From: a virus
IMG/VR virus record: IMGVR_UViG_3300018016_000213
Coordinates: 1-26,033 of that record
DNA: 26,033 nucleotides
Strand: one strand, 5' to 3'
Under the pieces are notes generated by a model. The model made no database searches and was not told the origin of the DNA. It worked only from the letters and a program-made list of their open reading frames with translations. Position 1 is the stretch's first letter, and each line of letters begins with the position of its first letter. Position numbers and translations under genes: made by a program. Below, one piece after another: positions 1-25,391 of the stretch.

Positions 1-804
1 TTACTGCTCCAGGGCGCTGATGCCGACATTGGTGAAACCCATGTCCGAGGCCGTGGTGACGCTTTCCGCGGCCAGGTCGATCCAGTAGGCCGTATTCAGG
101 GTCAGGCCGGTGACCACCACGGAGACGGAAAAGGGCACGTGCAGGTCAGCGGCGGTGATGGCGGCTGGGTTGGTATATTCCTGGATAACCCCGATCTGAG
201 TCCCAGTCAGAGTGCCAGCATTGGACGGCGCACCGCCGGTCCCATAGGAAATCTGATACAAAATGCCGTTGTCGACCGTAGTGCCGGTGGGGGCAATGAT
301 GGTCCCGCAGATCGTGATTAAGACTCTCCCGGAGCGAGTCGGAGTAATGGAGCCGGCCAATCCCTGCATTTTGTAAGCACTGGTGCTGGCCGGGGCCGTG
401 GGGCTGCTCGTCCCGGTTTTCTGGTCATAAGCAGCTACGGGCAGGTCGGCATTTACCAGGGCCCGGAACGAAGCCGTGCCGGAACTGCCGTTAGGCGCAG
501 CGTAGATATAGTTGGCAGTTTGCGAGCCGGAAATACCGGCCGCCGTGCCAGTAGTATTCTGATTAAAGGTCGGCCAGTCGGTCAACTGGCTGCCGTTCAC
601 CGCAGGGAGCCTGCCGCTGCCGTCAAGCTGCACCAGATTGTTGGCCGCAGTCCCCACTTCATAGGCGTTATTCCAGGTATAGCCGGTCGCAAGAGGGACG
701 CCGGAGCCGGGTGCGCCCTGCCCCACCAGATACTGCTGGGCCTCGGCCCCGTTGATTGCCAGGGTCAGCAGGAGCAATGCCATCAGGATTACTGCTCTTT
801 TCAT
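1..804 (-). CDS. Short tail fibre-like protein with signal peptide
   Basis: The 267-residue protein is complete; its stop codon is the first three bases of the window. The ATG is preceded by GGAGGA at good spacing, and this ribosome site overlaps the stop of the upstream 1607-residue fibre gene, so the two are probably translationally coupled. Residues 1-22 form a typical Sec signal peptide (Lys-Arg, a Leu-rich core, then AEA before QQ). Residues 23-120 carry the low-complexity cassettes shared with the other two fibre genes, such as VQLDGSGRLPAVNGSQL and [14 protein letters not shown]. Residues 140-267 form a beta-rich C-terminal domain of unknown fold that resembles small phage fibre head domains. 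A role as a receptor-binding or accessory fibre is inferred from the cassettes and position. Export of such a protein would be unusual. Confidence 0.75.
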   Translation of the reverse strand: MKRAVILMALLLLTLAINGAEAQQYLVGQGAPGSGVPLATGYTWNNAYEVGTAANNLVQLDGSGRLPAVNGSQLTDWPTFNQNTTGTAAGISGSQTANYIYAAPNGSSGTASFRALVNADLPVAAYDQKTGTSSPTAPASTSAYKMQGLAGSITPTRSGRVLITICGTIIAPTGTTVDNGILYQISYGTGGAPSNAGTLTGTQIGVIQEYTNPAAITAADLHVPFSVSVVVTGLTLNTAYWIDLAAESVTTASDMGFTNVGISALEQ

Positions 805-817
805 GGTTCGATCCTCC

Positions 818-3800
818 TTAATAAGCCGTCAACCCGCAGTTGAAGATGCTCACCCCGGCTGCCGAGGCCGAAGCCGCCCGGCTAAGGGTCAGGGTGTTCG
901 TTCCGGTGTCGATAGCGATAACTCTGTTGTCAGGGCCAATGCCACTACCCTGAATGAAGTCGCCTACCATCCAGTTGCCGATGTTAGTCACGCTCGTAAG
1001 AGAGGTGCTGGAATTGGTAGCCGCCGTTGACAGATTGCCGGGGCCAATAATAAAAAGCGGCACTACGACCTGGATAGAGCCACCTGCTGGCGCCCATGAA
1101 GTGTTGATGTTATCCACTAAACTCTGGGCTGTGATCTGAGCCCCGGTGATATTAGTGACGTGGAAAGCTGGGGCGATATTGCCTGAGTTAACGGTTGACC
1201 TGTCTGGCACATTCCATAAGATTGTATCTCCTAACTGATAATCGGCGCCTCCCCCTGCTCCAGCTGTAAAAGTCAGGACGGCGCTGTGGCCGACGCCGGA
1301 TATGGACAATCCGCTATAGTAAAAGGTGTCGGTTATGTAGTTATTATAACCAGGACCGCCGTTAATATTGTAGTGGGTACAACTTTGATTGGTGAATATC
1401 TGTGCCTTGGTCGTCCAGGGCGAGATGTACTGCTTCCCGGTATAATATCCAGTATATTCCTCACCTAAATAACCGGGGCTATCCCATATCGGGGAGTTTG
1501 TAAATGTCCCAAAGTCCAGAGGATTTAGAGTATAACCGATAAGCGCATTAGCATTAAATGATAGAAATGTAGTTCCTGTAAATACCGGTGGCCTATTGTC
1601 GGCGATGAAATTGAACCCCCAAGCTACTCCTCCACCCTCTATGCTACACCCTGTAAATAGCGAACTTCCAACAAACAAATACGGTTCGTAAGAATGAATA
1701 ATGTCTATAAGGCAACTATCATAATGACAGGAATTATTTCCCAGCCAGCCAATAGATTCCATTTCTGCGCCTGATACTACACTGGCGCCATTTCCCCCAT
1801 CAATAACTTCCCAGGTTGTTTGACTCCCTCCACCATAGATAGAAGGAATTTGTCCTTGTTGAGCACCGTGGACCGTCCCAGTATATCCCTGCCAGCAGGA
1901 AGTAACCCAACCGTTCTCCGTAATACAACCGTCATTTTGGGTTCCGCCAAAGGAAAAGCCATAAGTGCAATTTATAGCTTGGCTATCCCTGATGCTGATG
2001 GTGTCATCTGCCTCGCCGCCCAGGGCCACAAAGCCCACGACGAAATTGCTTATCTGAATATCTTTTAGAAACAGACCCGAACTATATCCCTGCCCGTAGG
2101 TATCGTTGCTGTACCCGCCTGTGGGTTTGGTCCCGGAGTAAGGGTCAAGGGCAATCCCGGCATAAGGGGAATATTGCGTGTCATTGCAGCCCGCCGTGAC
2201 CCAATCAGCCTTCACGGGGTCAGGCATACTATTTGCATAAGAGTTACAAGCAGTACTTGGCGCAACATTCTTTCCATTGATTGTAAGGCCTTCTATTACT
2301 GTTCCCCGTAAATTACATAGTGCAACAGCAGGCCGGTCCCCGAAGGCAGTAGCGTCAATAAATGTTGCTTTGCTTCCCGCACCCCTAATATTATAGCCAA
2401 TAAGACCATAGCGAGAATTTTCCCCTATCTTCCAGGTATCGGTAATCTTGTACTCGCCTTCTGGTAAATAGATAGGGGCACCACCGGGGCCACACGTAGC
2501 GGACACAACCATACTGTTGAGGGCGGCTGTATCATCGTTCACATCATCGCCCTTAGCTCCCCACCACTGAGGAACCAGAGTTGTGGGCTTTCCCGGACAG
2601 TTTGCATTTGAATTGTTCCAAAAGGAGACAAGCGCAGTTGCATCGGCACAGGAGAACACCTGATATAGCCCTGCCTGGAAGCCCCCGTTGATGGTGAGGG
2701 TAACGCCGGTGGGGATGGACAGGATGGCTCCACGCTCCGGGGCCAGGGTGAGGTTGGCGGGGATGGTGAGGTTAGTAGAAATTGCTTGAGGGCTACTATA
2801 ATGCAAGGTGGCCATGGTTGTGGTGCCGATGGTGGTGATGGCCGCCGCCAGGGTGGCGCAGCCCGGGTCGCCGATGGTGTAGCCCAAAGGCAGGCCGTAA
2901 TCGGCGCCTGAGACCGCCGGCGTAGTGCCTCCGGTCCCGTTGCCTTTCAACATGGCCGTGCCGGTAGTGGCCGGGGCATAAGCCCCCGGGGTTATGGACA
3001 CCACGCCCCCGGTGTTGGTGAGGGGGGAGTTGAAGGTGAGAGAGGAGGAGCCGCCGGACGAGGCTATGGCATAAGGGTTGGCCACCGTGCCCGAGCCGGT
3101 GATGGTGACGTTGCCGCCTGCCGCTAGTAGTCCGTTGATGCTTGCCACCGACCCGGCCTGCCCGGTAATGCTGCCGGTAGGCGTCACATAATCTGTTCCC
3201 GGACTGGCACTGGTAAACCCGCCTGCCCCGTTCCCTTTGAGGAGAGCTGAGCCCAAAGTGGCCGGGGCGTAGTCGGTGCCGGGGACTGCCGCCGTAGTGC
3301 CCCCAGCGCCATTACCCTTGAGGATGCCGGTGCCGGTAGTGGCCGGGGCCGCGCCTACCATCGCCGCGGTCAGGTTGGTTAAATTTGCCCCACTCACTGC
3401 CGGAAGCTGGCCGCTGGAATTGAGCAGCACCACGCCATTGGCGGCGTTGGCGTTGGCGGTCGAGCCGGTGCCCCCGTTGGCGGCGGCTACGACTCCGGTC
3501 ACGTTGGCGGCGGTACCCGTCGTGTTTTGATTCAGAGTCGGGAAGGTGCAATTGGCCAGATTACCGGATGCCGGGGTGCCCAGGGCCGGGGTTACCAAGG
3601 TGGGCGACGTGAGGGTTTTATTGGCTAAGGTCTGCGTGTCCGTAGTGCCAGCGATGATGCCGCTGGCGGGGAAAGCCTCACCCGTTACGGAACCCGCAGC
3701 CCCGGTGGTGGATTGATTCAGGGTTGGGATATCCGAGGCTACAATCGACCGGAACGAAGCCGTGCCAGAGCTGCCATTAGGCGCAGCGTAGAAGGATTTG

Positions 3801-5641
3801 GCGGTCTGGGAGCCGGAAAGTCCGGCGGCGGTAGTGGCGGTCGCAGCATTCCCGGTGGTATTCTGGTTCAGGGTGGGAAAAGTGCAGTTGGCCAGGTTTC
3901 CGGAGGATGGAGTGCCTAAAGCTCCGCCGGAATATAACATCGTGGCACTTGATGCAGGAAAAGTATAGGTTGCGGCGGAACTGGGACCGGCGATACTGGC
4001 GTAGGCTCCCCATAGGGTAGCTGACCCAGCGCTGCCAGTAGTATTCTGATTAAGAATAGGAAAGGTGCAGTTGGCGAGGTTGCCAGAGGCCGGAGTCCCA
4101 AGGACCGGTGTCGTCAGGGTCGGTGAAGTCAGAGTCTTATTGGTAAGAGTCTGGGTATCTGAAATACCGACTAAGGCACTGGCCGGGGCAGTAAGGCTGG
4201 TCCCCCAGGCGGAGCCGGTGGAAAGTGGAACTCCAGCTCCCGGATAAAGCATGCTGCCACCGCTGCCGCTGCTGGAAATCGAATAAGGGCTGGCCGCGGT
4301 TCCAGAACCAGAAAGGGTGATATTGCTTCCGGAGCTTATCAAGCCGTTGATGGTCGCAACCATCCCGGCCTGGCCAGTGGTGTTCTGATTAAGGGTGGGG
4401 AAGGTGCAGTTGGCCAGGTTTCCGGAGGATGGAGTGCCCAGAGCCGGGGTGGTCAGGGTCGGGGTGGTCAGGGTCTTGTTGGTAAGGGTCTGCGTCCCGC
4501 CCGTGGTGACGAAGCCATCCAGAGCATAGGTGTTGCCGGAGGTGCCGGAAAGAGAATATCCGGCATAGGCAGGGGGCGTTCCGACGCCACCGGACAGGAG
4601 AGGCTTGTTGGCGGCCACATCCGGGATATATGATGTTGCCCCGAAGCCGCTCTGATAGACTAAGGAGCCTGCCGTGGTGCCTGACAGATTCATGGCCGTG
4701 GTGGCCGTAGTGGCCGTGGCGGCCGTGGCCGCATTGCCGGTAGTATCCTGGTTCAGGGTTGGGAACGTGCAATTAGCCAAGTTGCCGGAAGAGGGAGTGC
4801 CCAGCGCCGGGGTGGTCAGGGTCGGGGAGGTCAGGGTTTTATTGGTGAGTGTCTGGGTATCGGAGACTCCGACTAGAGCGCTGCCCGGAGCCGTCAGGCT
4901 GCTCCCCCAGGCGCCGGAGCCGGCATAGACCGGGATGCCGGAAGCAGAGGGCCAGCTCATGCTGCCGGGTTGGGAGTACCAGCCCTTAACCCCGGACGCA
5001 TTGGTCCCGTACACCATAGAATTGCCGGGCGAAGATGAGTCCCCGGACAAGGCCACGGTCCCGCCCGTGTTGAGGAGGCTCTGGTAGAAGGTCAAGCCGA
5101 CGGCGGCGGCATTAAGCGTCTGCCAGCTCTTGTCGCCTCTCCAGTATTGGGAGGTGGTCCCGGGGGCGATGGCGGGTTCCTGGGCCTCGTTGAGGACGTT
5201 CCCCAGCCCCACCGCGGCGGCGTTGAGGGTCTGCATGGTGAGGTCGCCCCTCAGGTATTGGGAAGCGGTGCCGACCGGCAGGGCGGCCTGCTTGGCGTTG
5301 AAGGCGCTCCAGTCGGCGGCGCACAAGTAGCCGGCCGCCGCGGCGCCGGCCTGGGGCATACTGATTACGCGAGTGGCGGCGTTATAGGTGAGGGGCGCCG
5401 CGGGCGAGAAGTTGACGCCGCCCCCTCCGCCCCCATTCGCGGCCAGGAGGGCCAGTTCGGCGTCAGCCTTGGCCAGGCCCTGGTTGAACAGGTTATATTC
5501 CGTCGGTCCCGCGGCCCCCAGGGAGGGTTCGTAGAAATAGCCGTTGGCGGTCCACTGGCCGGCATGGCAAGTGAGCGGTGAGCAGTAAGCAGTGAGCAGT
5601 AAAGCTAACCCAACCACGGTGACTTTGAATAACTTATTCAT
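818..5641 (-). CDS. Large tail fibre/tailspike with beta-helix domain and signal peptide
   Basis: This 1607-residue protein starts at an ATG preceded by AGGAG. Residues 1-27 read as a signal peptide whose second half (LTAYCSPLT) is translated from a heptamer repeat element. The next segment, [20 protein letters not shown], looks like an ordinary phage fibre N-terminus. Residues about 30-920 consist of degenerate repeats ([38 protein letters not shown]) typical of long fibre shafts. From about 924 a pectate-lyase-like right-handed beta-helix begins, with the motif [17 protein letters not shown] near residue 1035; such domains often bind or cleave surface polysaccharide. The last 150 residues form another beta-rich tip. 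The beta-helix coding part is visibly more AT-rich than its surroundings, which suggests a swapped receptor-binding domain. Depolymerase activity is inference; no catalytic residues could be assigned. Confidence 0.85.
3543..4863 (-). repeat. Direct repeats encoding fibre shaft
   Basis: Five diverged copies of a unit of up to about 100 bp lie near 3543-3642, 3880-3920 (short copy), 4061-4161, 4401-4500 and 4764-4863. They encode the peptide block [12 protein letters not shown] and, upstream of it, [14 protein letters not shown] and [10 protein letters not shown]. The copies differ at many third positions, so they are not recent duplications. They are likely sites for recombination within the gene and with related fibres. 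Confidence 0.8.
5570..5604. repeat. Heptamer array (family A) inside signal peptide codons
   Basis: A run of AGTGAGC/AGTAAGC-type 7-bp units on the plus strand. Read on the minus strand it encodes LTAYCSPLT of the 1607-residue fibre signal peptide. It belongs to the same family as the intergenic arrays elsewhere in the window. Confidence 0.8.
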
Positions 5642-5649
5642 TCGAGACT

Positions 5650-5710
5650 CCTATAAGCGGTAAGCACTTAGCCGTTAGCAGTTGTTTTATTCCTGCTCCC
5701 TGCTCACTCG
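5650..5710. repeat. Degenerate family A heptamers, endolysin-fibre gap
   Basis: Diverged GTAAGC/GCTCACT heptamers fill the 71-bp gap between the endolysin stop and the large fibre start, on both sides of a short T-rich stretch. The two sides are in opposite orientation, so the transcript could form an imperfect hairpin. The large fibre ribosome site (AGGAG) lies just outside the array. Confidence 0.6.
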
Positions 5711-5712
5711 CT

Positions 5713-6423
5713 TCATTCAATGCCGAGGGCCTTCAGCGTGGCCGGGCCCGCCTCACCATCGGCTACCAGGGAGCCCTGGGAACGTTGAAAACCGGCAACG
5801 GTAAGCTCCGTTTGAGGTCCATAAACCCCATCCGCCTCCAAAGACCCACAGGCCGGAACCACCCGCCGCTTCAGGGCCTCCTGGAGGCGCTGCACCGCCG
5901 GACCCCTCATCAGGGGATCGGTGAGGCGGTAAATGGGCCCGGTTGGAGGCATAACCGGAATATTAGGCCGGGGCGTCTGGTACTCGATCCCTGGAACCAT
6001 TATACCCAAATCCCAGCGCCGGCCGTGCAGGGTGGAAGTAATGACCCCGGTTGCGGTAGAATGCGCCTCCACGGTCCCCCCCAGGCCGTCTGAGAAGACG
6101 ATATGGCCGCACTGGGAGGCGGTGCCCAACCTCAGGACCGCGGCCCCGGGCGAGGCGGCAGCTTCCTCCAGAGAGACGATGAGGCCGACGCTGCGGGCGT
6201 CCCGGTTCCAATAAATGGTGCCTCCGTAAACCTCCAGGGGGTTCCCCTTGTCGCGGTCGGCGCCATAAATGAGCTTGGCCGCCTGATATACGGCCCAGGA
6301 AGCGAGTTTGGAGCAATCAAAGACCCGGGGGTTCGGCGCCCCTACCGGAGTGAGGGCGCCGAAGACGTAAGAATCGCCCAGGCGGGTGCGGGCTTTTTGC
6401 AGGATGTCTGCGCCTGTGACCAT
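5713..6423 (-). CDS. Endolysin: NlpC/P60-like peptidase with PG_binding_1 domain
   Basis: The 236-residue protein starts at an ATG preceded by AGGAGC. Residues about 5-150 match an NlpC/P60-type cysteine peptidase: Cys37 in VFDCSKLASW, His107 in QCGHIVFSDG and a possible third residue His121 in VEAHST. Residues 168-236 form a peptidoglycan-binding domain of the PG_binding_1 type (RGPAVQRLQEAL, then ADGVYGPQT, GFQRSQG and GPATLKALG). It probably cleaves stem-peptide bonds in peptidoglycan and lyses the host at the end of infection. The neighbouring holin-like gene on its 5' side supports a lysis cassette. There is no signal peptide, so a holin or other route is needed to reach the wall. This is distinct from the second NlpC/P60 gene in the tail tip module. 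Confidence 0.85.
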   Translation of the reverse strand: MVTGADILQKARTRLGDSYVFGALTPVGAPNPRVFDCSKLASWAVYQAAKLIYGADRDKGNPLEVYGGTIYWNRDARSVGLIVSLEEAAASPGAAVLRLGTASQCGHIVFSDGLGGTVEAHSTATGVITSTLHGRRWDLGIMVPGIEYQTPRPNIPVMPPTGPIYRLTDPLMRGPAVQRLQEALKRRVVPACGSLEADGVYGPQTELTVAGFQRSQGSLVADGEAGPATLKALGIE

Positions 6424-6431
6424 AAAAGCTC

Positions 6432-6505
6432 CTGTTTTCTGTTTTCTTTCTTCTGTTTTTCTGGGAAAGGCAAAATCAGACCCATTTATAAAAGACAGAA
6501 AACAG
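6432..6505. repeat. Octamer array with inverted repeat, holin-endolysin gap
   Basis: Units of the GTTTTCTG type (family C) run from 6432, and the perfect 11-bp arms CTGTTTTCTGT (6432-6442) and ACAGAAAACAG (6495-6505) face each other across about 50 bp. The gap between the two lysis genes is thus filled by an inverted pair that could fold as RNA. A poly-U terminator is not evident. Confidence 0.65.
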
Positions 6506-6515
6506 ATAATCGCCT

Positions 6516-6707
6516 TTATTTAGGCCAGTTGCTGAAGAGGCCCACGAGGGCGACGATGCCGCCGAGGGTGGCGGTCAAGGCTGTTTGCAAGGGGCTGGAC
6601 TGAGCCGGGGTGATGATGCCTAAGGCCACCAGGGTGCTCAGGGCGGCGGCGATGATCCCGGGGATGGTGGTCTTGGGATCGGCCCAGATTTTTTGCCAGA
6701 AAGTCAT
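6516..6707 (-). CDS. Holin-like small membrane protein
   Basis: This 63-residue protein has a near-perfect ribosome site (AAGGAGG) four bases before its ATG. It has two hydrophobic segments, about residues 14-34 (IPGIIAAALSTLVALGIITP) and 42-59 (ALTATLGGIVALVGLFSN), separated by a short polar turn, and a short charged N-terminus (WQKIWADPKTT). Size, topology and its place directly 5' of the endolysin gene fit a small phage holin that would permeabilise the inner membrane. Assignment to a named holin family cannot be made by eye. It could instead be another small phage membrane protein, but the lysis context makes holin the best call. Confidence 0.7.
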   Translation of the reverse strand: MTFWQKIWADPKTTIPGIIAAALSTLVALGIITPAQSSPLQTALTATLGGIVALVGLFSNWPK

Positions 6708-6732
6708 ATGGCCTCCTTAGCTGCTGGTATAG

Positions 6733-6906
6733 TGGCCGGTAGCAAAGGCCCCTGGCCTGTGAGTAATCATATGGGCCACAGGCGGGACGCCTATGCTACC
6801 GGCTTACTGCTCACTGCTTACTGTCTTGGCGGGATGCGCTCCGCTTTCCCGCCCTACACCGCTGCTCACTGCTCACAGAAATGGTGGGCGGTGCCCACCC
6901 TACACT
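6733..6906. repeat. Compound repeat block between collar fibre and holin
   Basis: The 201-bp gap holds four elements in a row. A palindrome has arms GCCGGTAGCA (6735-6744) and TGCTACCGGC (6794-6803) and contains the GCCACAGGCGGGACGCCT core (family E). Two family A heptamer arrays lie at about 6803-6829 and 6849-6876. A GGTGGGCGGTGCCCACC palindrome (family F) lies at about 6882-6900. The block ends at the stop codon of the collar fibre. No gene was found in it. Confidence 0.8.
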
Positions 6907-6908
6907 GC

Positions 6909-8117
6909 TTAATATTTGATGATGTAATTCAGCACCAGGGCGGGGGGGGTGATATTGTGCGCCCCGCCGCCGCCGGTGGCGGTCCCTGTGATACCATTCA
7001 GGGCGGTAATTGCCGTAAACTGGCCACTCTGGATAAGTGCGGTATTAACGTTATCCTGTATGACTGCATTTGATCCCCCGCCGCCGGTGCCGGTTGCCAG
7101 AGTCCCTGTTACCGGCATACTCGCTTCCTCTGCCGACGTTAGAGTATGCGATTGCTGGCCGCCGCTGGCTCCCAGCGTGGCGCTGCCGGTGATGCCTCCG
7201 GTATTGCCCGAGCCCAAACGCCCGGCCGCCGTGCCTCCCATGGCGTCGGCGCCGAAGGCGGCGCGGCCCCGCAAATCTGGGATGCCGAAGGTGCCGCTCC
7301 CGGAGCCGTAGGTGGTGCCGATGGCGCCATACAAGCTGGCATAGGTCGTGGTGCTCACCTGCTGGCCGTAGCATAAGAGCCAGCCGCTGGGAGCGGAGGC
7401 GCCTGCATAGGGCACGATGACTCCAGGAGGAATAGAGGCGGCCGCCAGGTTGGTCAACAGGCTGCCGTCCACCGCGGGCAGTTGGCCGCTGCTGTTAAGC
7501 TGGACCAGGTTATTGGCGGTCGTTCCCACCGTGTAGGAAGTCCCCCAGGCCGACCCGGTGCTGTTGGGAACTCCGGCGCCGGGATAGACCATGCCGGTAG
7601 TGGGCAGATTGGTCAGTAAAGCCCCGCTCACGGCGGGGAGCTGGCCGCTGCTGTTAAGTTGGACCAGGTCATTCGCCCCCGTCCCCACTGTGTAGGAAGT
7701 CCCCCAGGCGGACCCGGTGCTCAGAGGAACCCCCGCTCCCGGATAAGACAGGCTTGGGGGTAAGGTCTGCCAGGTCTTGTCGCCGCGCCAATATTGAGAA
7801 GTGGTTCCGGGGGTAATGGCTAGCTCCAGACCCAGGTTGGCGGCGCCCAGCGTTCCGAGGACGATCCAGGCGGTGTTTGTTGAGTTCATTTGTTTCAGGA
7901 GGTTGTTGGTGGTGTCGGCCCAGAGCATGTAAGGCTCGGTGGTGGTGGGCGCCGAAGGTCCGGAGTTGATAGTGTTCAAGGAATCGAGGGCATTATTGAA
8001 GCCGGCGCGCACCTGGGCTCCGGTGCCGTCGGGAACCACCAGGGGGTATTGGGAGGCAAGGCAAAAGTTAAAAGTAAAAAGGCAAAAAACCAGCAAAAAG
8101 GCGGTTAGTTTTTTCAT
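6909..8117 (-). CDS. Tail fibre with phage collar domain and signal peptide
   Basis: The 402-residue protein starts at an ATG preceded by AAAGGAG. Residues 1-21 form a signal peptide with a Phe/Leu-rich core (LVFCLFTFNFCLA) and a plausible cleavage site before SQYP. The codons for LFTFNFC come from a repeat of the TTTTACTTTTAACTTTTGCC type. The rest, starting SQYPLVVPDGTGAQVRAGFN, resembles the ordinary N-terminus of phage fibre proteins. Residues about 123-223 are two copies of a 50-residue cassette ([32 protein letters not shown]). Residues about 225-285 are a phage tail collar domain (PPGVIVPYAG, GWLLCYGQ, YGSGSGTFGIPDLRGRAAFG), followed by a Gly-rich tip ending PALVLNYIIKY. It probably serves in receptor binding at the tail tip. 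Its position just after the tip protein gene fits. Confidence 0.85.
   Translation of the reverse strand: MKKLTAFLLVFCLFTFNFCLASQYPLVVPDGTGAQVRAGFNNALDSLNTINSGPSAPTTTEPYMLWADTTNNLLKQMNSTNTAWIVLGTLGAANLGLELAITPGTTSQYWRGDKTWQTLPPSLSYPGAGVPLSTGSAWGTSYTVGTGANDLVQLNSSGQLPAVSGALLTNLPTTGMVYPGAGVPNSTGSAWGTSYTVGTTANNLVQLNSSGQLPAVDGSLLTNLAAASIPPGVIVPYAGASAPSGWLLCYGQQVSTTTYASLYGAIGTTYGSGSGTFGIPDLRGRAAFGADAMGGTAAGRLGSGNTGGITGSATLGASGGQQSHTLTSAEEASMPVTGTLATGTGGGGSNAVIQDNVNTALIQSGQFTAITALNGITGTATGGGGAHNITPPALVLNYIIKY
7448..7750 (-). repeat. Tandem duplication of fibre cassette (two copies, about 150 bp)
   Basis: Two head-to-tail copies, near 7448-7597 and 7602-7750, encode the block from YPGAGVP to QLPAVSG/QLPAVDG. 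They are very similar at the DNA level, more so than the five copies in the 1607-residue fibre, so this duplication looks younger. Confidence 0.75.
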
Positions 8118-8143
8118 GGGAAACTCCTTTGATAGGGGCCAGG

Positions 8144-8195
8144 TTAGTGAGCGATGAGCAGTTACTGCTCACTGCTCACTGCTTACTGCTCAATA
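8144..8195. repeat. Inverted pair of family A heptamers
   Basis: Two facing arrays meet at GAGCAGTTACTGCTC, followed by three more GCTCACT/GCTTACT units. The stop codon (TGA) of the 1290-residue tip protein lies inside the array. The ribosome site of the collar fibre lies just beyond it. Confidence 0.8.
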
Positions 8196-11100
8196 GCCCT
8201 TGGCGATGTAACTTATGTTCCGTGCTACGCCCGTGCCGCCATTACTAACCATGATTGCGCCCCCGGCTGGCCCGATGGCCGTGGGGAAGGTCACCACGTC
8301 CCCGGCCTGGGCGTTCAGAATGGTCACCGCGACGGATGGGGTGATCTGGAAGGCCGGGGTGAAGGTGACGGCCAGCCCGGTGGCGGGGCAGGCGATGCTG
8401 CCCACATCGACCAGGCGGTCCGGCATGGAGATGGACCAGGCGAAGTCCGTGACCACGGGTGATAAAGTGACGCCTCCCTGAACTATCTGGGTCAAGAGCA
8501 CCTGGAAGTTGACTTTACGGAAGACATAGGTGCCGGGGGTAAAATTCTGCCAGGCTCCCCAGGTGGCGCCGTCCTGGGTGAACTGCACCCGGATCTGGAC
8601 AGTCTGGGCCAGCGCCCCTCCGGCCTGGTCGAAGTCCGGCGCCGCGTCCACGTCGGGCACCGAATCGAATTCCCCGCCGGCTCCCGCATCATATTGATCT
8701 ACGTCGGGGATGGCATCCATGTCCGGAGCGGTATCGAAGGAAGCACCAGGCACCACGTTGTTGAAGGCCACGGAGGCGCCCAAGGCCGCGGCCTGGGCCG
8801 TACCCAGGTCCGGGACCTCGCTGGCGGGAATGGCGTAAGAGCCGACGGCTTGACCAACTGCCAGCACCACGGTCCCGGAGGACACCTGGGCAGCGGTGAG
8901 GATACCGGGCCAGCCTTCGCTGGCCTCATCCCTGCTGACCATGTCATTGATGGTGATGGCAACGGCTTCGACCTCGATCTGGGCGGTCACGGCGGAATAA
9001 GCCAGGATGACGCCGTTGCTGGCATAAGAGGCTGACACCCAATAGGTGCCGGCCTGCGTTACCAGGAAATCGGGATCGCTGACATAGGTCAGGATTTGAG
9101 CTGTGGCCCAAACGGCGCCAGAACGAATCTCGTAATTGATTCCGGAATACCTCGGGTCCTGGGCCGGCGTGATGGCGGTCCATTGGAGGTATTGCTGGGA
9201 GCCCTGGTAAACCGACACCAGGCCGGTGATATCCGGGAGGGGAGAGGTGAGGGCGCTGCCCTGGATCTGATAGGGATAGGCCTCGACATCGGCCAGGGAT
9301 TGGACGGCAGCGCCCACCTGGTTGTAGGACAGAAACTTCAAATAGATGGTCTGGCCAATCTGGTTGACCGAGAAAGGCATTTTATAGACGGAGCCGTCGA
9401 CCCGGGCGAAGCGGTCGCCGGCGGCGTGGGCGATTCCCACAGGCGAGCCGGTTGCGCCAGTGCCATAACCGTAGCAGTTGCGGCGCAGATAGCTGAGGTC
9501 ATAGATGGAGGCGCTCACCAGGGCGGCATTTTCGTAGGCGATGAATTCGCCGCCGGAAAGGTAGCAGAGGGTGACCAAGGCGTTCACTTCCGCCAGGGAG
9601 GCGCTAAGCAATACGCCTTCGGACTCGGTGAGATTCACCTTGGCCACGTCGGTGGTGTCGGGATCCGGGGCCGCGGGGAGCGGGTTCACCAGGAAGCCGG
9701 TGCGGGCCGGCGAGGTGACCATGCCAATCTGCTGGTAATTGCTGCCATCCCATGAGGCCCACACCTGGCAGCCGCCCCAGTTGGGACCGCCGCTCACCGC
9801 GGCCCAAACCTCCAGATCGTCGCTCAGGCCCAAAGGCGGCTCGAAGATGACCGGCGGATTGCAGTCCCCCGGGGGAGAGTTGTAATTCAGGACCAGAGGC
9901 GAGCGGTTCTGGCTGGGATAGACCGGGGCCTGGGCCGTGCCGATGGGCCATTCCAGGGCTGTGACCGTGGAGGTGCACTGGTCGTCCTCGGAGATCTCGG
10001 TGACCCGCAGGGGCATCTGGTTTAGCCCCAGGCGCGGGCTGGTCAGGGTGATCCAGTCGCCGGGCTCCAGGATATTGGCGATGAGGCCCAGCTTGAACTG
10101 GTAGGTGTTGCGGGCGTAAAGGCAATATTGGAGGATATTGGCGGCCACCGCAATGGCGACGTCGGGATCGGTGATGGGGTGGGCCATGATGACGTCCTGG
10201 GGCCTCAGCCCGTAAACGTCCTGGGCCGCCTGGTTGTTGACCACCACGATGGTGGTATTGTAGTCGGCGTAACGGTCCAGGTACTCGAGCTGCACCTGGT
10301 TATAGGCGTCCACCTGGGGGTTGCGGGTGATCTGGATCGGGTCGTTGTTGTCGTCCTCCAGGAAATCATCTTCGGTGAGGTCGAGGACCGGGGTGAGGAC
10401 CGGGGTGAAGGTGACGCCGGTCTTGGCGCTGCTGACGACCTGGTCGCCCATGGGGATGAACTTGAGATGGTCCTCGCTCCAGATAACTTGGGTGTTGAGG
10501 AGCTTGAGGATGTCGGCGATCTGCTCCCGGGTTTCCTGCTGCTCATCGAGAACCGGAGAGAGGAGGAAATCGTTGGCCAGGCAATAGTCGGAAAACTGGC
10601 TCATATCGCCGATCTTGGTGGGGTTGAAGCCGGCGCCATAATCGGGGTTGGTGAGGAGATCCGGGAGGAATTCGGCTGGATTGGAGTCGAGCAGGGTATT
10701 GTAAGTGTAATTAAGGACGACGGTGCGGCCACAGTCCCAGCCGGAGAAGGTGTAGGTGCCGGCGGTGACGTTGTATTGGCCGGCCGCGGCGGGGGCGCCG
10801 GCCGCCGGGGTTAAAGGTGTCCCATCGTCATAGGTGACGCCGTTGTCCTCCGTCCAGACGCAGCCGCTGGGAGAGATGGTAGCGCCCTGGGGCGTGGCGT
10901 AGTAATAGGCGATCACCAGGTCGCCGGGGTTCTGGCTGGCGTCCAGGGGGCTAAACCAGTAGGAGCCGTTGAGGCTCATATAGCAGCCCTGGGCGACCAC
11001 CGGCGGGTAAAGGGGATTGGGTTGGGAATAGGGAATGGGGGTGAGGAGGACCCCGGTCAGAGCGACGCCGGCGTCTCCGGTCCACAGGTCGTCATTGACC

Positions 11101-12062
11101 ACCTGGACCGGGTTGTCGTCGGGGAGGGTATATGCCTCGGTGCAGGTCCCGAGGCATCGGGCCACGGCCTGGAAGGCGGGTGCCGGGACATAGGTGTAGG
11201 AGATGACTATATTGCCGGCAGCGGGAGGAACATAGCCCGGATCATCAGGCGCGATATCCGGAGTGCCGACATAAAAAGTATAAATGCCACCGGTCTGGGA
11301 ATACTGCCCCGAGGCCTCTGGAGTCCCGGACACTTTGGTCATGGAGACCTGATTAAAGTCGCCATTTGCATCAACGCTGTCCCAGATAACCCCGCCATCG
11401 CTGATGAAGGCGACGGCGTTGGCCACGCTGACGGGAGTGATAGGCCCCCCGCCCGCACTGTAGTATGGCAGTGTATATGATTCGGTGGCCGTCGCGGCCG
11501 GGGGCAGCATCTGGGGCTCGCCGGTGACGGTGGTGGCGACTGTATAAGGAAGCGGTCCGTAGCACTCAAAGGAGACGTTGGGCATGGAGTTGCCGCTACC
11601 CAGATAGATGTTGCCGTGATAGAAGGCGGTGCCGTAATAGCCCAGGGCCTGGGCCGGGGCTCCGCTCAGCAGCTCGGGAACCGGGGGTTGGGGGCGCGAG
11701 CCTGCGGCCAGGCCCGCGGCGCTGAACAGGCATTGCCGGGTCTTGTCGCTCCAGGTGCGGCCGATGGCGGTGAGGGGCCCTTCGCAGAGGCCGAAGAGGA
11801 CCCAGATGGTATAGACGTATTGGGAGCCGCCGGAGGGCTGGGCGCCGCCTTTGCCCATGCTCTGGGAGGAGGCCGGCTGGGCCACCGGCATCCAACCCCA
11901 GGCGAAGAAAATGTTGGGCTGGAGGCGGTTGCGGCCGTAGAAAAGGGGGATGGCCAGGCCCTCTACCGCGGTGGTGACGCGGTAGGAGGCCTGGATGGTG
12001 CTGGTCTTGGCCGCAGGGCGGCTACTGCTGCCCGCCGCGGAGTCGCCCATCAATCCGGACAT
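8190..12062 (-). CDS. Tail tip/host specificity protein (gpJ / GTA gp15-like)
   Basis: This 1290-residue protein occupies the place of lambda gpJ or RcGTA gp15: after DUF2163 and NlpC/P60 and before the fibres. The N-terminus (residues 1-120, with LFYGRNRLQPNIFF and VYTIWVLFGLCEGPLT) is like phage tail tip proteins. Residues about 187-457 contain three copies of a small beta module (GQYSQTGGIYTF, GQYNVTAGTYTF), which also occurs in the tail tube protein. Residues about 460-700 fit a phage tail protein 3 type domain (TREQIADILKLLNTQVIWSE). Residues about 940-1025 look like a fibronectin type III fold. Residues 1105-1147 are Asp-rich (DMDAIPDVDQ, DSVPDVDAAPDFD). The last 75 residues form a beta-rich tip. 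The TIM-barrel part of RcGTA gp15 is not recognisable. The ATG has AAGGGA upstream. Confidence 0.85.
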   Translation of the reverse strand: MSGLMGDSAAGSSSRPAAKTSTIQASYRVTTAVEGLAIPLFYGRNRLQPNIFFAWGWMPVAQPASSQSMGKGGAQPSGGSQYVYTIWVLFGLCEGPLTAIGRTWSDKTRQCLFSAAGLAAGSRPQPPVPELLSGAPAQALGYYGTAFYHGNIYLGSGNSMPNVSFECYGPLPYTVATTVTGEPQMLPPAATATESYTLPYYSAGGGPITPVSVANAVAFISDGGVIWDSVDANGDFNQVSMTKVSGTPEASGQYSQTGGIYTFYVGTPDIAPDDPGYVPPAAGNIVISYTYVPAPAFQAVARCLGTCTEAYTLPDDNPVQVVNDDLWTGDAGVALTGVLLTPIPYSQPNPLYPPVVAQGCYMSLNGSYWFSPLDASQNPGDLVIAYYYATPQGATISPSGCVWTEDNGVTYDDGTPLTPAAGAPAAAGQYNVTAGTYTFSGWDCGRTVVLNYTYNTLLDSNPAEFLPDLLTNPDYGAGFNPTKIGDMSQFSDYCLANDFLLSPVLDEQQETREQIADILKLLNTQVIWSEDHLKFIPMGDQVVSSAKTGVTFTPVLTPVLDLTEDDFLEDDNNDPIQITRNPQVDAYNQVQLEYLDRYADYNTTIVVVNNQAAQDVYGLRPQDVIMAHPITDPDVAIAVAANILQYCLYARNTYQFKLGLIANILEPGDWITLTSPRLGLNQMPLRVTEISEDDQCTSTVTALEWPIGTAQAPVYPSQNRSPLVLNYNSPPGDCNPPVIFEPPLGLSDDLEVWAAVSGGPNWGGCQVWASWDGSNYQQIGMVTSPARTGFLVNPLPAAPDPDTTDVAKVNLTESEGVLLSASLAEVNALVTLCYLSGGEFIAYENAALVSASIYDLSYLRRNCYGYGTGATGSPVGIAHAAGDRFARVDGSVYKMPFSVNQIGQTIYLKFLSYNQVGAAVQSLADVEAYPYQIQGSALTSPLPDITGLVSVYQGSQQYLQWTAITPAQDPRYSGINYEIRSGAVWATAQILTYVSDPDFLVTQAGTYWVSASYASNGVILAYSAVTAQIEVEAVAITINDMVSRDEASEGWPGILTAAQVSSGTVVLAVGQAVGSYAIPASEVPDLGTAQAAALGASVAFNNVVPGASFDTAPDMDAIPDVDQYDAGAGGEFDSVPDVDAAPDFDQAGGALAQTVQIRVQFTQDGATWGAWQNFTPGTYVFRKVNFQVLLTQIVQGGVTLSPVVTDFAWSISMPDRLVDVGSIACPATGLAVTFTPAFQITPSVAVTILNAQAGDVVTFPTAIGPAGGAIMVSNGGTGVARNISYIAKGY

Positions 12063-12436: not shown

Positions 12437-12508
12437 AGTGAGCTGTGAGCTGTGAGCTGTGAGCAGGAAAGACTAACTGCTTACTGCAAACTGCTTACTG
12501 CTTACCCC
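12437..12508. repeat. Heptamer arrays upstream of cold shock gene
   Basis: Three AGCTGTG units facing right are followed by GCTTACT-type units facing left. The TAA stop of the NlpC/P60 gene (12502-12504) lies inside the left-facing array. The pair could form a hairpin in the leader of the cold shock gene. Confidence 0.75.
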
Positions 12509-13023
12509 CAGGCGGTTAAGAATTTCACCTGATACCGGTCCAGATTCAGGGCCGAGAAGAGGGCGTTGTCCAGGATACAGGCGTTGATCGGCGAGGCCGC
12601 GGCATGGATGATGCAGGGCCAAAGGAGCACGATGGCCCCGTGGGAATAGGCCCGGCCAATCTTCCAGACCGCGATGTCGCCGTGCAAGGGAGTGGTGTTT
12701 ATTTCCCGGCCGCCCAGGGTCCGGACCATTTCCAGATAGCGCTCCTCCCCCCGGTGCAGGTGCCATTGTTGAGAGTAGTTGGGAATCAGGGAGCTGTGGG
12801 CCGTGAGCCGCGAGCCGTGAGCAGTTACTGCTCGCTGCTCGCTGCTTACTGCTAACTCCTTTTTGATGACTCCCGCGGCCAGGAAGACCTCCAGGAGCAA
12901 CATGGCGCAATCGACGCCGCCCTGGGGCCCCTTGACCCGGCCCTGATGATGGAAGGGCGTGCCGATCCAGGACTCGGCTTCGGCAAGGACGGCCTGACGC
13001 TGGCCGGACTCCAAAATAGTCAT
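12502..13023 (-). CDS. Tail tip NlpC/P60 peptidase (GTA gp14-like) with in-frame repeat
   Basis: The 173-residue protein starts at an ATG preceded by GAGGT. It has the peptidase core of the tail-associated NlpC/P60 family: Cys39 in GGVDCAMLLLEV, His128 in YSHGAIVL and His140 in PCIIHAAA. It is expected to clip peptidoglycan during DNA entry and is carried at the tail tip, as in RcGTA gp14 or the lambda gpK C-terminal half. Between AAGVI and IPNYSQQWHLHR, which are normally close together in this family, lie about 26 extra residues (54-79; ELAVSSEQRAVTAHGSRL is part of them) read from a family A repeat. All putative catalytic residues remain. The insertion is a multiple of three and keeps the frame, so the protein may still fold with an added loop. 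The stop codon also lies in a repeat. Confidence 0.88.
   Translation of the reverse strand: MTILESGQRQAVLAEAESWIGTPFHHQGRVKGPQGGVDCAMLLLEVFLAAGVIKKELAVSSEQRAVTAHGSRLTAHSSLIPNYSQQWHLHRGEERYLEMVRTLGGREINTTPLHGDIAVWKIGRAYSHGAIVLLWPCIIHAAASPINACILDNALFSALNLDRYQVKFLTAWG
12787..12864. repeat. In-frame family A inverted pair inside NlpC/P60 gene
   Basis: A 78-bp segment (26 codons) consists of right-facing GTGAGC-like units and left-facing GCTGCTTACTGCT-like units meeting at GAGCAGTTACTGCTC. The flanking protein sequence continues as a normal family member on both sides, so this is an insertion inside a coding region without loss of frame. Confidence 0.85.
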
Positions 13024-13046: not shown

Positions 13047-13140
13047 GGTTTCCGGTTTCCAGTTTTCGGTTTTCGGTAAAGTCAAAAGCAAAAAGCCTTT
13101 ACTGCTAACTGCTAACTGCTTACCGCTCACTGCTCACTAA
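13047..13140. repeat. Octamer and heptamer arrays between DUF2163 and NlpC/P60 genes
   Basis: Family C units (GGTTTTCG and GGTTTCC types) run at about 13047-13083, then a short AAAGTCAAAAGCAAAAAG stretch, then family A heptamers at about 13096-13140. They fill most of the 132-bp gap and leave room only for the NlpC/P60 ribosome site. Confidence 0.75.
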
Positions 13141-13155
13141 TCCTTAACCCCTGAT

Positions 13156-17531: not shown

Positions 17532-18275
17532 CTACTCCGTCACCGTCAGCGTGCCCACATTGTCGTTGTCGTCCGCCATCGCCGAAAAGTCGAATTCCAC
17601 GATCAAGTGATCCTCGTTCTTGGTGGGTAGCGAGAGCTTCGAGCTTACGCAGCGGTTGAGGATCAGGGTCATGGTCTTGCCGTCAGTGACGCCGGACAGG
17701 ACCGCCTTGAACGTGGGCGTCAGGCCCATCGGCTGATTGGTGATAGCGATGGTGCCCCCGGTGGTGGCCGAGTTATGGAGGTAGTCGATGAGGATGGCCG
17801 CGCCTTCGTCGGCCGCGGCAAAGGTGTAGACGCCGCCGGCGCCTATGCTGTATTGGCCCACCGTGGGGGCGCTGGGGACCTGGGTCAGCGGGGCGCCATT
17901 GGCGGCGTAGACCACCCCCAGGTCCTGTGTGAAGGTGGCGGCATTGGCCACGGTTACCGTGTAGGGCGACGCGGCCGGGATCTCGGCCGCCTCGCCCTGG
18001 GCCTCCAGCAGCTCGCCGGTGCTCTTGGGCAGCCCGAAAAAGAGGACGTTCAGCATAGCGCCCTGGATCTGGCCCAGCTTGGCCTTGCAGGTGATCTTGC
18101 TCTTGCCCCGGCCGATGTGGGCGGCGAACTGGTTGGCGCCGTAGAGTTCCTTGGCATCCGCGGAGAATTCCACCGAGACGTCCTGGAGCGTGCCGAATTT
18201 GACGGGGGTGGGAGTCGGGGTGGAATTGTCCAGCCCGTAAAGTGCTCCGGCCCCGAAGAAGAATTGCTTGGGCAT
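17532..18275 (-). CDS. Major tail tube protein with inserted beta module
   Basis: The ATG at 18275 has AGGAG at ideal spacing and gives 247 residues. The longer frame upstream is repeat sequence and is rejected. The N-terminus (LYGLDNSTPTPTPVKFGTLQ, DVSVEFSADAKELYG) and the C-terminal strand VEFDFSAMADD fit tail tube proteins of the phage/GTA type. These polymerise into stacked hexamers around the tape measure. Residues about 102-168 form an inserted module (YTVTVANAATFTQDLGVVYA, VGQYSIGAGGVYTF, AILIDYLHNS) that also occurs three times in the 1290-residue tip protein, where it probably decorates the surface. It is followed by the chaperone and preceded by a Pro/Ala-rich small gene. Confidence 0.87.
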   Translation of the reverse strand: MPKQFFFGAGALYGLDNSTPTPTPVKFGTLQDVSVEFSADAKELYGANQFAAHIGRGKSKITCKAKLGQIQGAMLNVLFFGLPKSTGELLEAQGEAAEIPAASPYTVTVANAATFTQDLGVVYAANGAPLTQVPSAPTVGQYSIGAGGVYTFAAADEGAAILIDYLHNSATTGGTIAITNQPMGLTPTFKAVLSGVTDGKTMTLILNRCVSSKLSLPTKNEDHLIVEFDFSAMADDNDNVGTLTVTE

Positions 18276-18285
18276 CTTAGTCTCC

Positions 18286-18455
18286 TTTCTAAAAGGGGTA
18301 AAAGGGTAAAAGGTCAAAAGGGTAAAAGGTCAAAAGAACAGGGGTAAAAGGGTAAAAGGCGAAAAGGGTAAAAGTTTTGGGGGTCCTTCCCCTTTTTCCC
18401 TCTTCCCATTTTTCCCCGGTTTTCATTCCCCTTTCCCCCCTTTCCCCTTTCCCCC
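18286..18455. repeat. Purine-to-pyrimidine array, 170 bp
   Basis: From 18286 the plus strand is a run of GGTAAAAGG and GGTCAAAAG units (family B), nearly pure purine apart from T. From about 18385 it switches to CCCCTTTT and TTTCCCC tracts. The two halves are roughly complementary and could form a long hairpin or an intramolecular triplex. It fills the gap between the Pro/Ala-rich gene and the tail tube gene. No gene is present. Confidence 0.75.
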
Positions 18456-18697: not shown

Positions 18698-18713
18698 ATC
18701 GTCCTCCTCAAAA

Positions 18714-18780
18714 TGCAGTGATCAGTAACTGCTCACCGCTCACTGCTTACTGCTCACTGGGCGGGGAAACCCCGCCCCTA
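18714..18780. repeat. Heptamer array and GC palindrome supplying a stop codon
   Basis: Family A units lie at 18714-18757, followed by the palindrome GGGCGGGGAAACCCCGCCCC (18758-18777). The TAG stop of the tail terminator-like gene (18778-18780) sits at the end of this palindrome, within the CTAC that normally closes such elements. Confidence 0.8.
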
Positions 18781-19213: not shown

Positions 19214-19298
19214 TTCTGTTTTCCGTTTTCTGTTTTCTGTAGGGGCAGGTTTAAAACCTGCCCCTACTGCTCACTGCTTACTGCTAACTGCTCACTGT
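19214..19298. repeat. Three repeat families in one gap
   Basis: Family C octamers (about 19214-19240) are followed by the palindrome GGGGCAGGTTTAAAACCTGC (family D variant, about 19240-19267) and family A heptamers (about 19266-19296). The TAG stop of the gp10-like gene (19284-19286) and its last codons (QTVSS) lie in the heptamer array. Confidence 0.8.
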
Positions 19299-20951: not shown

Positions 20952-21058
20952 TTACTCCAAGTTAGCAGTGAGCGGTGAGCAGTAAGCCGGTAGCACAGGC
21001 GTCCCGCCTGTGGCCCTCATTTGGTGCGCAGTGCGCACCCTACACCGACCACTGATCA
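20952..21058. repeat. Chain of family A, E and F repeats
   Basis: Family A heptamers (about 20955-20988) are followed by GGTAGCACAGGCGTCCCGCC (family E, about 20988-21014), then GGTGCGCAGTGCGCACCCTA (family F, about 21023-21043), then more heptamers ending in the TGA stop (21056-21058) of the small gene to the right. There is no room for a gene. Confidence 0.8.
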
Positions 21059-24477: not shown

Positions 24478-24495
24478 ATAATCTCCGGTTTATTA

Positions 24496-24565
24496 ACTGT
24501 GAGCAGTAAGCAGTGAGCAGCGACCAGTTTTTTGCCTTTGTTTTTACTGGCAACTGGCCACTGGC
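24496..24565. repeat. Heptamer and family B repeats
   Basis: Family A units (about 24497-24520) are followed by TTTTTTGCCTTTGTTTTTAC (family B, about 24528-24547) and ACTGGCAACTGGCCACTGGC units (to about 24566). The TAG stop of the glycosyltransferase gene (24565-24567) lies in this block. Confidence 0.75.
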
Positions 24566-25335
24566 TACTCAGGGCCGAAGGCCCTGGTGGTCCTGCCGTT
24601 CCAGTTGGCGCCCATGGCGGCGCGCTCGCTCTCCAGGTGGGTGGCGATGATCTCCGGGATCAGATGGCGCCTGTCCCTGGTCCACTGCATGGCGAAGAGC
24701 ATGTCGCTCCGGGCCGCGGTGGTGTGGTGCTCGGGATATTGGCAAACACCCGAGCCCCCGGGATTCCATAATTGAAAATAGCCGATGGGCACGTAGCCGT
24801 CCCGGTCCAGCTTGGCGATGCGCACCGCCAGCGGGAAGGGGCGGTTGTGCACGAAGATCTCCCATTCGTGCTGCAGGGGCGGCGCGCTCAAAAACTTGAT
24901 CCAATCGGCGAAGCTCCAACACTCCATGCGGTCCAACCCGTAGAGGCACTGAGGGTCCAGGGAGATGCGCTGCAGGATGGACCGGGTCCGGGGCGGCAAG
25001 TAAATATCGGCGTCCATGTGGACCACCCAGCCGTCTTTGGCCAATTTCGACAGGCCGAAATTGATGCCCTTGGCTTTGTTAAAGGCGTCGTCATTGCGGT
25101 GCCAGTCGTAGGTGGGGTAGCACTCGACGTGGTAATAGGCGCACAACTGTTGCGTCAGCTTGTCGTCGGGCCGCGTAACCACCACCATGCGGTTGAAGTG
25201 CTGCTTGTTGGCTGGCAGCGTCCAGGCCAGGTAATCGCCATATGAGACGCAGGTGATCACCGCTTCGATCTTGAGGTCCACGGGCGAAGGCTTCGGTCCT
25301 GGCGGTTCGGGATGGGGATATTCCTTATCCGGCAT
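24565..25335 (-). CDS. GT-A type glycosyltransferase in head module
   Basis: From the ATG at 25335, chosen because AAGGAGC lies seven bases upstream, the protein has 256 residues. After a Pro-rich start (EYPHPEPPGPKPSPVD) it has a nucleotide-sugar binding type beta-alpha start (KIEAVITCVSYGDYLAWTLP), NRMVVVTRPDDKLTQQLCAY, NKAKGINFGLSKLAKDGWVV and then HMDADIYLPP. The last holds the DxD-type metal site at residues 108-110 expected of GT-A family 2-like enzymes. The C-terminal part has several His residues (CQYPEHHTTAARSDMLFAMQ, IIATHLESERA). It would transfer a sugar from a nucleotide donor; donor and acceptor cannot be told. Its place between portal and protease, with tight spacing, suggests capsid protein glycosylation or a moron modifying the host envelope. 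Confidence 0.8.
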   Translation of the reverse strand: MPDKEYPHPEPPGPKPSPVDLKIEAVITCVSYGDYLAWTLPANKQHFNRMVVVTRPDDKLTQQLCAYYHVECYPTYDWHRNDDAFNKAKGINFGLSKLAKDGWVVHMDADIYLPPRTRSILQRISLDPQCLYGLDRMECWSFADWIKFLSAPPLQHEWEIFVHNRPFPLAVRIAKLDRDGYVPIGYFQLWNPGGSGVCQYPEHHTTAARSDMLFAMQWTRDRRHLIPEIIATHLESERAAMGANWNGRTTRAFGPE

Positions 25336-25391
25336 TGATGTGCTCCTTAGCCAGTCTGACACGATGATTTCTTCCGCTCTCAGGGCGTTAC

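Follow-up and report, generated by a model that had tools for sequence, protein, structure and literature searches.

How might a tailed phage use tail fibres that carry signals for export? Folding and assembly of tail fibres are generally assumed to be cytoplasmic; the question is raised by IMGVR_UViG_3300018016_000213, a 26,033-base IMG/VR virus record (the whole of which is called the window here) holding the minus-strand late genes of a long-tailed phage. Read inward from the right, they encode portal, protease, major capsid, connectors, tail tube, tape measure, DUF2460, DUF2163, NlpC and tail-tip proteins, followed by F1, a holin, an endolysin, F2 and F3 (Table 1). The record begins at the exact F3 stop codon, probably a mark of the trimming often seen in provirus records. 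The initial annotation described F1, F2 and F3 as tail fibres, all with secretory signal peptides. Our analysis indicates that their N-termini are very probably functional Sec export signals, joined in F1 to a phage fibre and in F2 to a protein family shared with the host.

For signal prediction, we used a scorer of our own, with 200 labelled E. coli K-12 genes for calibration; all 30 proteins of the Sec/SPI (signal peptidase I) class scored at least 10.2, as did none of 112 cytosolic proteins (maximum 10.08). The claimed signals were borne out, with F3, F2 and F1 scoring 13.75, 11.85 and 11.55, respectively, within the range of the secreted set. Among 15 other window genes, the holin alone passed (10.28), being a true membrane protein, and the rest scored 7.15 or less. 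Lambda Lom served as a positive control (13.3), and lambda J and Stf fell below threshold. Each of the three N-termini has a positive n-region, a hydrophobic core of eight or more residues and small residues at -3 and -1, as seen in F1 (MKKLTAFLLVFCLFTFNFCLA/SQYPLVV; slash, predicted cleavage) and F3 (MKRAVILMALLLLTLAINGAEA/QQYLVG). The SPII lipoprotein lipobox, [LVI][ASTVI][GAS]C, was absent from all three when read by eye. Cysteine content, taken as a sign of periplasmic folding, did not set F2 (1.3%) apart from the signal-less tail tip (1.2%). The starts themselves appear real, as had been argued from their strong ribosome sites: a Shine-Dalgarno (SD) sequence, AAGGAGGAT in the case of F3, lies 6-8 nucleotides (nt) upstream of each, and no in-frame SD-backed start occurs at the mature N-terminus of F1, F2 or F3. 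The only near candidate, GTG codon 36 of F1, was rejected, as it falls within the conserved domain and relatives lack its SD-like sequence. Since the scorer also gives high scores to inner-membrane proteins and does not tell N-terminal anchors from cleavable signals, comparison of the junction with relatives carries more weight.

That comparison is clearest for F1, whose N-domain (F1N) is orthologous to the N-domains of phage fibres. Signal-bearing relatives occur in the window and in contigs L005/L041, L006/L040 and L017/L043, and signal-less ones in L020-L024, L092-L094, Roseobacter phages CRP-6 and CRP-406 and cyanophage MED4-184. The signal-less proteins begin with Met-Ser-Gln (or Met-Ala-Thr) exactly at the predicted mature start, so that the N-termini of homologues agree with the proposed cleavage. 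Like F1, the Collar-domain fibres of siphophages CRP-6 (gp38) and CRP-406 follow the tail tip; they share the F1 N-domain and, in close relatives, the Collar domain, and differ in having Met at the mature N-terminus and no signal peptide. Signal-bearing members share 83-98% identity in the mature N-domain, where the ratio of nonsynonymous to synonymous substitution rates (dN/dS) is 0.05-0.18, while the signal is only 40-55% identical, apart from the L006 and L017 pair (90%). L005 and L006 are 98% identical past the junction and 55% before it. At the DNA level, the window F1 signal is homologous to the signal of L017 F2, not of L017 F1 (alignment score 44.5, against a maximum of 22.5 in 2000 codon shuffles). 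Because the mature domain is conserved, the signal has diverged or been swapped, and its DNA matches an F2 signal, the F1 signal behaves as an exchangeable cassette, apparently selected for its property; this property recurs beyond chance across diverged relatives, and its sequence does not. By these comparisons, F1 is a bona fide tail fibre carrying a bolt-on signal that was, at least once, seemingly of F2 type.

Does an exported F1 still belong to the virion? We ran profiles of F1N and of the C-terminal domain of the tail tip (tipC) across all loci. In loci found via the tail tip alone, F1N came next in 9/9 that had tipC and downstream sequence and in 0/34 that lacked tipC (Fisher p = 1.8e-9, or ~1e-6 once near-copies were thinned by eye). 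Where F1N itself led to the locus, tipC lay in the preceding gene, except in CRP-6 and one distant prophage from a metagenome-assembled genome (MAG). The pairing holds with and without the F1 signal, and is most simply explained by docking of F1N on tipC. Because F1N follows tipC whether or not a signal is present, F1 probably still docks to virions, and we think it reasonably likely that virions are its destination. As the tail tip has no signal peptide, an exported F1 would have no contact with it before lysis; the predicted signal would also place F1 outside the class of tail fibres made and kept in the cytoplasm. The early suggestion that fibres join virions outside the cytoplasm thus gains indirect support, for F1 only, from this conserved pairing. 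As a separate observation on the tail tip, phrog_8234 matches both the protein at the tail-tube position (17532-18317, 207 bits) and tail-tip residues 395-460 (46 bits), which suggests that a tail-tube-like domain may have been duplicated in the tail tip.

The likely host lies within one class of Deltaproteobacteria, an assignment based on DUF6600 relatives, a shared repeat and a prophage capsid match. Beyond F2, contig L017 continues into host-like DNA with an HMA-domain gene and a DUF6600 gene, and the nearest DUF6600 relatives found come from lake Deltaproteobacteria MAGs (51% identity). A 23-nt dispersed repeat of the window has exact copies in 12/29 genomes of the class (reversed control, 0), and one of the repeat-bearing genomes contains a prophage with a capsid protein 51% identical to that of the window. 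Within the window, this repeat (ACTGCTCACTGCTTACTGCTCAC and variants) occurs in many intergenic stretches and within two genes, namely in the F2 signal peptide and in the NlpC gene (12502-13023). F1 relatives were not found among the 29 class genomes, and a set of 395 genomes sampled across the phylum yielded only one, signal-less and in a tail module; an initial genome scan with F1 had given no match. PF13550 matches in two class genomes were judged spurious, the ~1,490-residue open reading frame reading as a dehydrogenase/HdrA-like protein. The F1N profile gave no meaningful match to PDB sequences, and AlphaFold2, run on F1 with six relatives, reached a mean predicted local distance difference test (pLDDT) score of 34.

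F2 is a different case. Its pectate-lyase-like β-helix is recognized by PF12708 at 30 bits, just above the 27-bit cut-off, and its N-domain found no match in 50,697 isolated phages. The adaptor domain that follows the signal, F2N, occurs in three viral contigs, always preceded by a signal; three different signals meet a single junction, /GQWT. The F2 signal is kept in two further phages, and in L103 the stop codon of the NlpC tail gene and the start codon of F2 have bases in common. In the phylum sample, the F2N profile hit 9/395 genomes, all in the host class, and within that class 12/29. The host proteins are mostly ~600-860 residues long, nearly all have a signal, and they are built in the order signal, F2N and β-helix; window F2 has the same order with shaft repeats inserted. 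Window F2 sits in the phage late operon rather than in a polysaccharide locus, where host members do occur. At the loci that we read, most members of the family are host genes, usually adjoining exopolysaccharide genes: in G008, G004, G024 and G029, the neighbours encode sugar transferase, Wzx, Wzz, Wza or nucleotide-sugar epimerase; in G002, an epimerase gene lies a few kilobases away; in G010-G012, a DegT-type aminotransferase gene adjoins; and at the other loci read the context is not clear. A short F2N protein in G029 and a fragment in G024 have no signal, and export therefore does not extend to the whole host family. The short G029 protein (L130, 6477-7058) adjoins a large secreted protein and lies near an asparagine-synthase-like gene. 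In G001 (L129, 2646-3770), a weakly Phage-tail_3-like gene comes straight after the host F2-family gene, a possible prophage trace.

Exchange between phage and host is visible in this family. In G013, an F2-family copy lies inside an unrelated prophage, between the major head gene and a minor tail gene. A small tree grouped the two phage F2 proteins (97/98) and placed the G013 prophage copy among host genes, a placement that requires at least two moves between phage and host. In G004, the DNA of a prophage fibre matches a gene in an exopolysaccharide locus of that genome at 82% identity across 227 nt. The fibre, whose sequence was taken from a viral contig corresponding to the prophage, also bears a signal, MTRLLKTITICILTVGLALGSMTAMGF. 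Judged from sequence, the exchange could have run in either direction, and F2 is, on the same footing, the phage branch of an exported signal-adaptor-β-helix family common to host exopolysaccharide loci. Whether F2 acts on exopolysaccharide we regard as evenly balanced. The initial annotation fares unevenly here. Calling F1 a tail fibre has a sound basis and calling F3 one is plausible, but for F2, a member of the host-shared family, the name gives only half of the picture; of the two signals said to precede an ordinary fibre N-terminus, that of F1 does so, its orthologues starting at that point, and that of F2 instead precedes a domain of a host-lineage β-helix family. The connection to the host, raised there as re-use of fibres, gains evidence from the F2 homologues in exopolysaccharide loci and from the sequence exchange. 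On a role as decoys or as a block to superinfection, also raised there, the evidence is neutral.

Signal-bearing fibre-like proteins are not peculiar to this lineage. Fibre-like proteins with signals occur in two unrelated tail-tip loci (L072:10032, with a β-helix, and L089:12990), and L103 encodes a signal-bearing LamG-like fibre-like protein; most other tail-tip loci have no signal-bearing fibres. The collar fibre of the G008 prophage showed no signal when its start was read, so not every fibre in the host class carries one. The L103 prophage (298-7129) has tape measure, DUF2460, DUF2163 and NlpC genes, with the tail-tip gene replaced by two signal-bearing fibre-like proteins. Elsewhere in the window, a 265-residue glycosyltransferase-like protein (24565-25362) is encoded between the portal and protease genes, with no confident family match.

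Table 1. Positions of the fibre genes, their signals and domains, and neighbouring features in the window
Feature	Position	Strand	Basis
F1, 402-residue tail fibre, Collar domain and N-terminal signal peptide	6909..8117	-	PF07484 75 bits
F1 signal peptide (predicted), residues 1-21, cleavage CLA/SQ	8055..8117	-	score 11.55; signal-less orthologues begin at S22
F1 Shine-Dalgarno AAAGGAG	8124..8130	-	sequence
F1N domain, residues 22-92, conserved docking-type N-domain of phage fibres	7842..8054	-	profile/homologues
F2, 1607 residues: signal peptide, F2N adaptor, phage shaft repeats, β-helix	818..5641	-	PF12708 30 bits
F2 signal peptide (predicted), residues 1-27, junction CHA/GQW kept in relatives; TAYC/SP equal score	5561..5641	-	score and relatives
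F2 Shine-Dalgarno AGGAGT	5647..5652	-	sequence
F2N adaptor domain, residues 28-68, common to host exopolysaccharide-locus proteins	5438..5560	-	profile
Phage fibre shaft repeats between F2N and β-helix; L017 homologue largely without them	2957..5287	-	alignment
Start of β-helix region, residues 922-1100, homologous to host proteins	2342..2878	-	38% identity to G008 protein, E 6e-21
F3, 267-residue fibre-like protein with signal peptide	1..804	-	signal score
F3 signal peptide (predicted), residues 1-22, cleavage AEA/QQ	739..804	-	score 13.75
F3 Shine-Dalgarno	811..819	-	sequence
Tail-tip protein, 1290 residues (Phage-tail_3, Rcc01698_C), without signal peptide	8190..12062	-	family matches, signal score
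tipC, C-terminal tail-tip domain co-occurring with F1N	8193..8690	-	profile co-occurrence
Putative holin, between F1 and F2	6516..6707	-	weak family matches
Endolysin with peptidoglycan-binding domain, without signal peptide	5713..6423	-	family matches, signal score
Dispersed repeat copies	5566-5602, 6773-6823, 8149-8198, 12437-12509, 12788-12859, 13086-13141, 18713-18757, 19251-19297, 20966-21016, 24491-24529		sequence

What might the exported fibres do? We propose that a prophage lineage of an anaerobic Deltaproteobacteria group makes its fibres alongside the late tail and lysis genes, and that these would be exported via Sec and cleaved where the mature fibre begins, a step with strong sequence support. 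Mature fibres may then accumulate in the periplasm or on the cell surface, and there F2 could bind or act on the cell's own exopolysaccharide. Virions would be assembled in the cytoplasm, and lysis would bring them to F1, which would dock onto the tail tips. The combined picture, in which export comes late alongside the lysis genes, F2 works at the envelope and F1 docks once the cell lyses, is the best fit, and we lean towards it. The wider proposition, that the lineage exports receptor-binding fibres by the host Sec system, completes virions outside the cytoplasm at lysis and trades fibre modules with secreted exopolysaccharide proteins of the host, is tentative, possible rather than probable. 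Several points weigh against the combined picture. The host context of the F2 family would also suit fibres that stay out of virions altogether; low-complexity or dispersed repeats, which by accident read as hydrophobic, encode parts of the F1 and F2 signals; no F3 relative with an aligned N-terminus was found; and we know of no tailed phage whose fibre and cytoplasmic tail tip are kept apart until lysis.

The chief rival, to which we give a low yet appreciable probability, is that the exported fibres never join virions and instead bind or alter the polysaccharide on the surface of the producing cell, either at a late stage of infection or in the lysogen, and thereby block superinfection, release progeny from slime or convert the lysogen. 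The polysaccharide genes beside the host relatives of F2 (Wzx, Wzz, Wza, sugar transferase and epimerase), its pectate-lyase-like β-helix and the signal-less tail tip all suit this account, which has more difficulty with F1, since that gene adjoins the tail-tip gene and its strongly conserved N-domain pairs with tipC just as in signal-less phages. The translational link of L103 F2 to a tail gene also speaks against it, as does, more weakly, the lack of a promoter-like site of its own found upstream of F1 in a scan that performed near chance. A related account, in which a prophage remnant has been domesticated and the host uses the fibres as surface adhesins, as with Bdellovibrio MAT fibres, draws on the passage of L017 from fibre genes into host genes and on the host F2 homologues and their exchange with prophages. 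We consider it improbable, as the window structural module is intact, the tail tip and endolysin are under purifying selection (dN/dS 0.17-0.37), and F1 was not found in the 29 class genomes, the one relative among the 395 phylum genomes being signal-less and in a tail module.

Two further alternatives concern the N-terminal segments themselves. They could be uncleaved membrane anchors or structural hydrophobic helices kept in the fibre, as the signal-level scores of inner-membrane proteins and the long c-region of F2, with its ambiguous cleavage site, would allow; we judge this very unlikely, given that in every F1 case the junction coincides with the start of the signal-less orthologues, that a -3,-1 motif always accompanies it and that the whole segment is swapped as a unit. 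To an artefact in which upstream starts are spurious, frames are in error or N-termini are hydrophobic by chance, and translation starts at the fibre domain, we give almost no weight: a dispersed repeat also found between genes does form part of the window F2 signal, but strong SDs stand at the signal starts and none at the junctions, and the same arrangement recurs in independent contigs and genomes.

The fibres of this lineage resemble several known systems without matching any. Target proteins of phage diversity-generating retroelements are likewise receptor-binding phage proteins with surface-displayed bacterial counterparts (PMC6199706); there, absence of a signal peptide was used to mark phage receptor-binding proteins against host surface proteins, a rule that the window fibres break. 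The mosaic adhesive trimer (MAT) fibres of Bdellovibrio, marked by a conserved ~130-residue β-rich domain after the signal, are by description also phage-fibre-like, signal-bearing and displayed outside the cell (PMC10769870), but they are host genes of a predatory bacterium, whereas the window genes lie in phage structural operons. With phage tailspike depolymerases and other pectate-lyase-like β-helix proteins (PF12708), F2 shares its fold, and it differs in its signal and in an adaptor common to host exopolysaccharide-locus proteins, its own activity being putative. The fOg44 endolysin Lys44 (PMC6116005) and lambda Lom (PMC12309495) also use a host Sec signal, but are a lysin and an outer-membrane barrel, not fibres. 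Sec-exported phage proteins and exported phage-like bacterial fibres were therefore already known; signal peptides on tailed-phage fibres, of which we found no report in the open-licence literature, appear to be new within it. In this lineage every fibre has a signal, signals are kept and swapped as modules, and homologues exist in host exopolysaccharide loci; it thus raises the questions of whether virions can be completed outside the cytoplasm and whether phages and hosts trade exported, carbohydrate-directed β-helix proteins.
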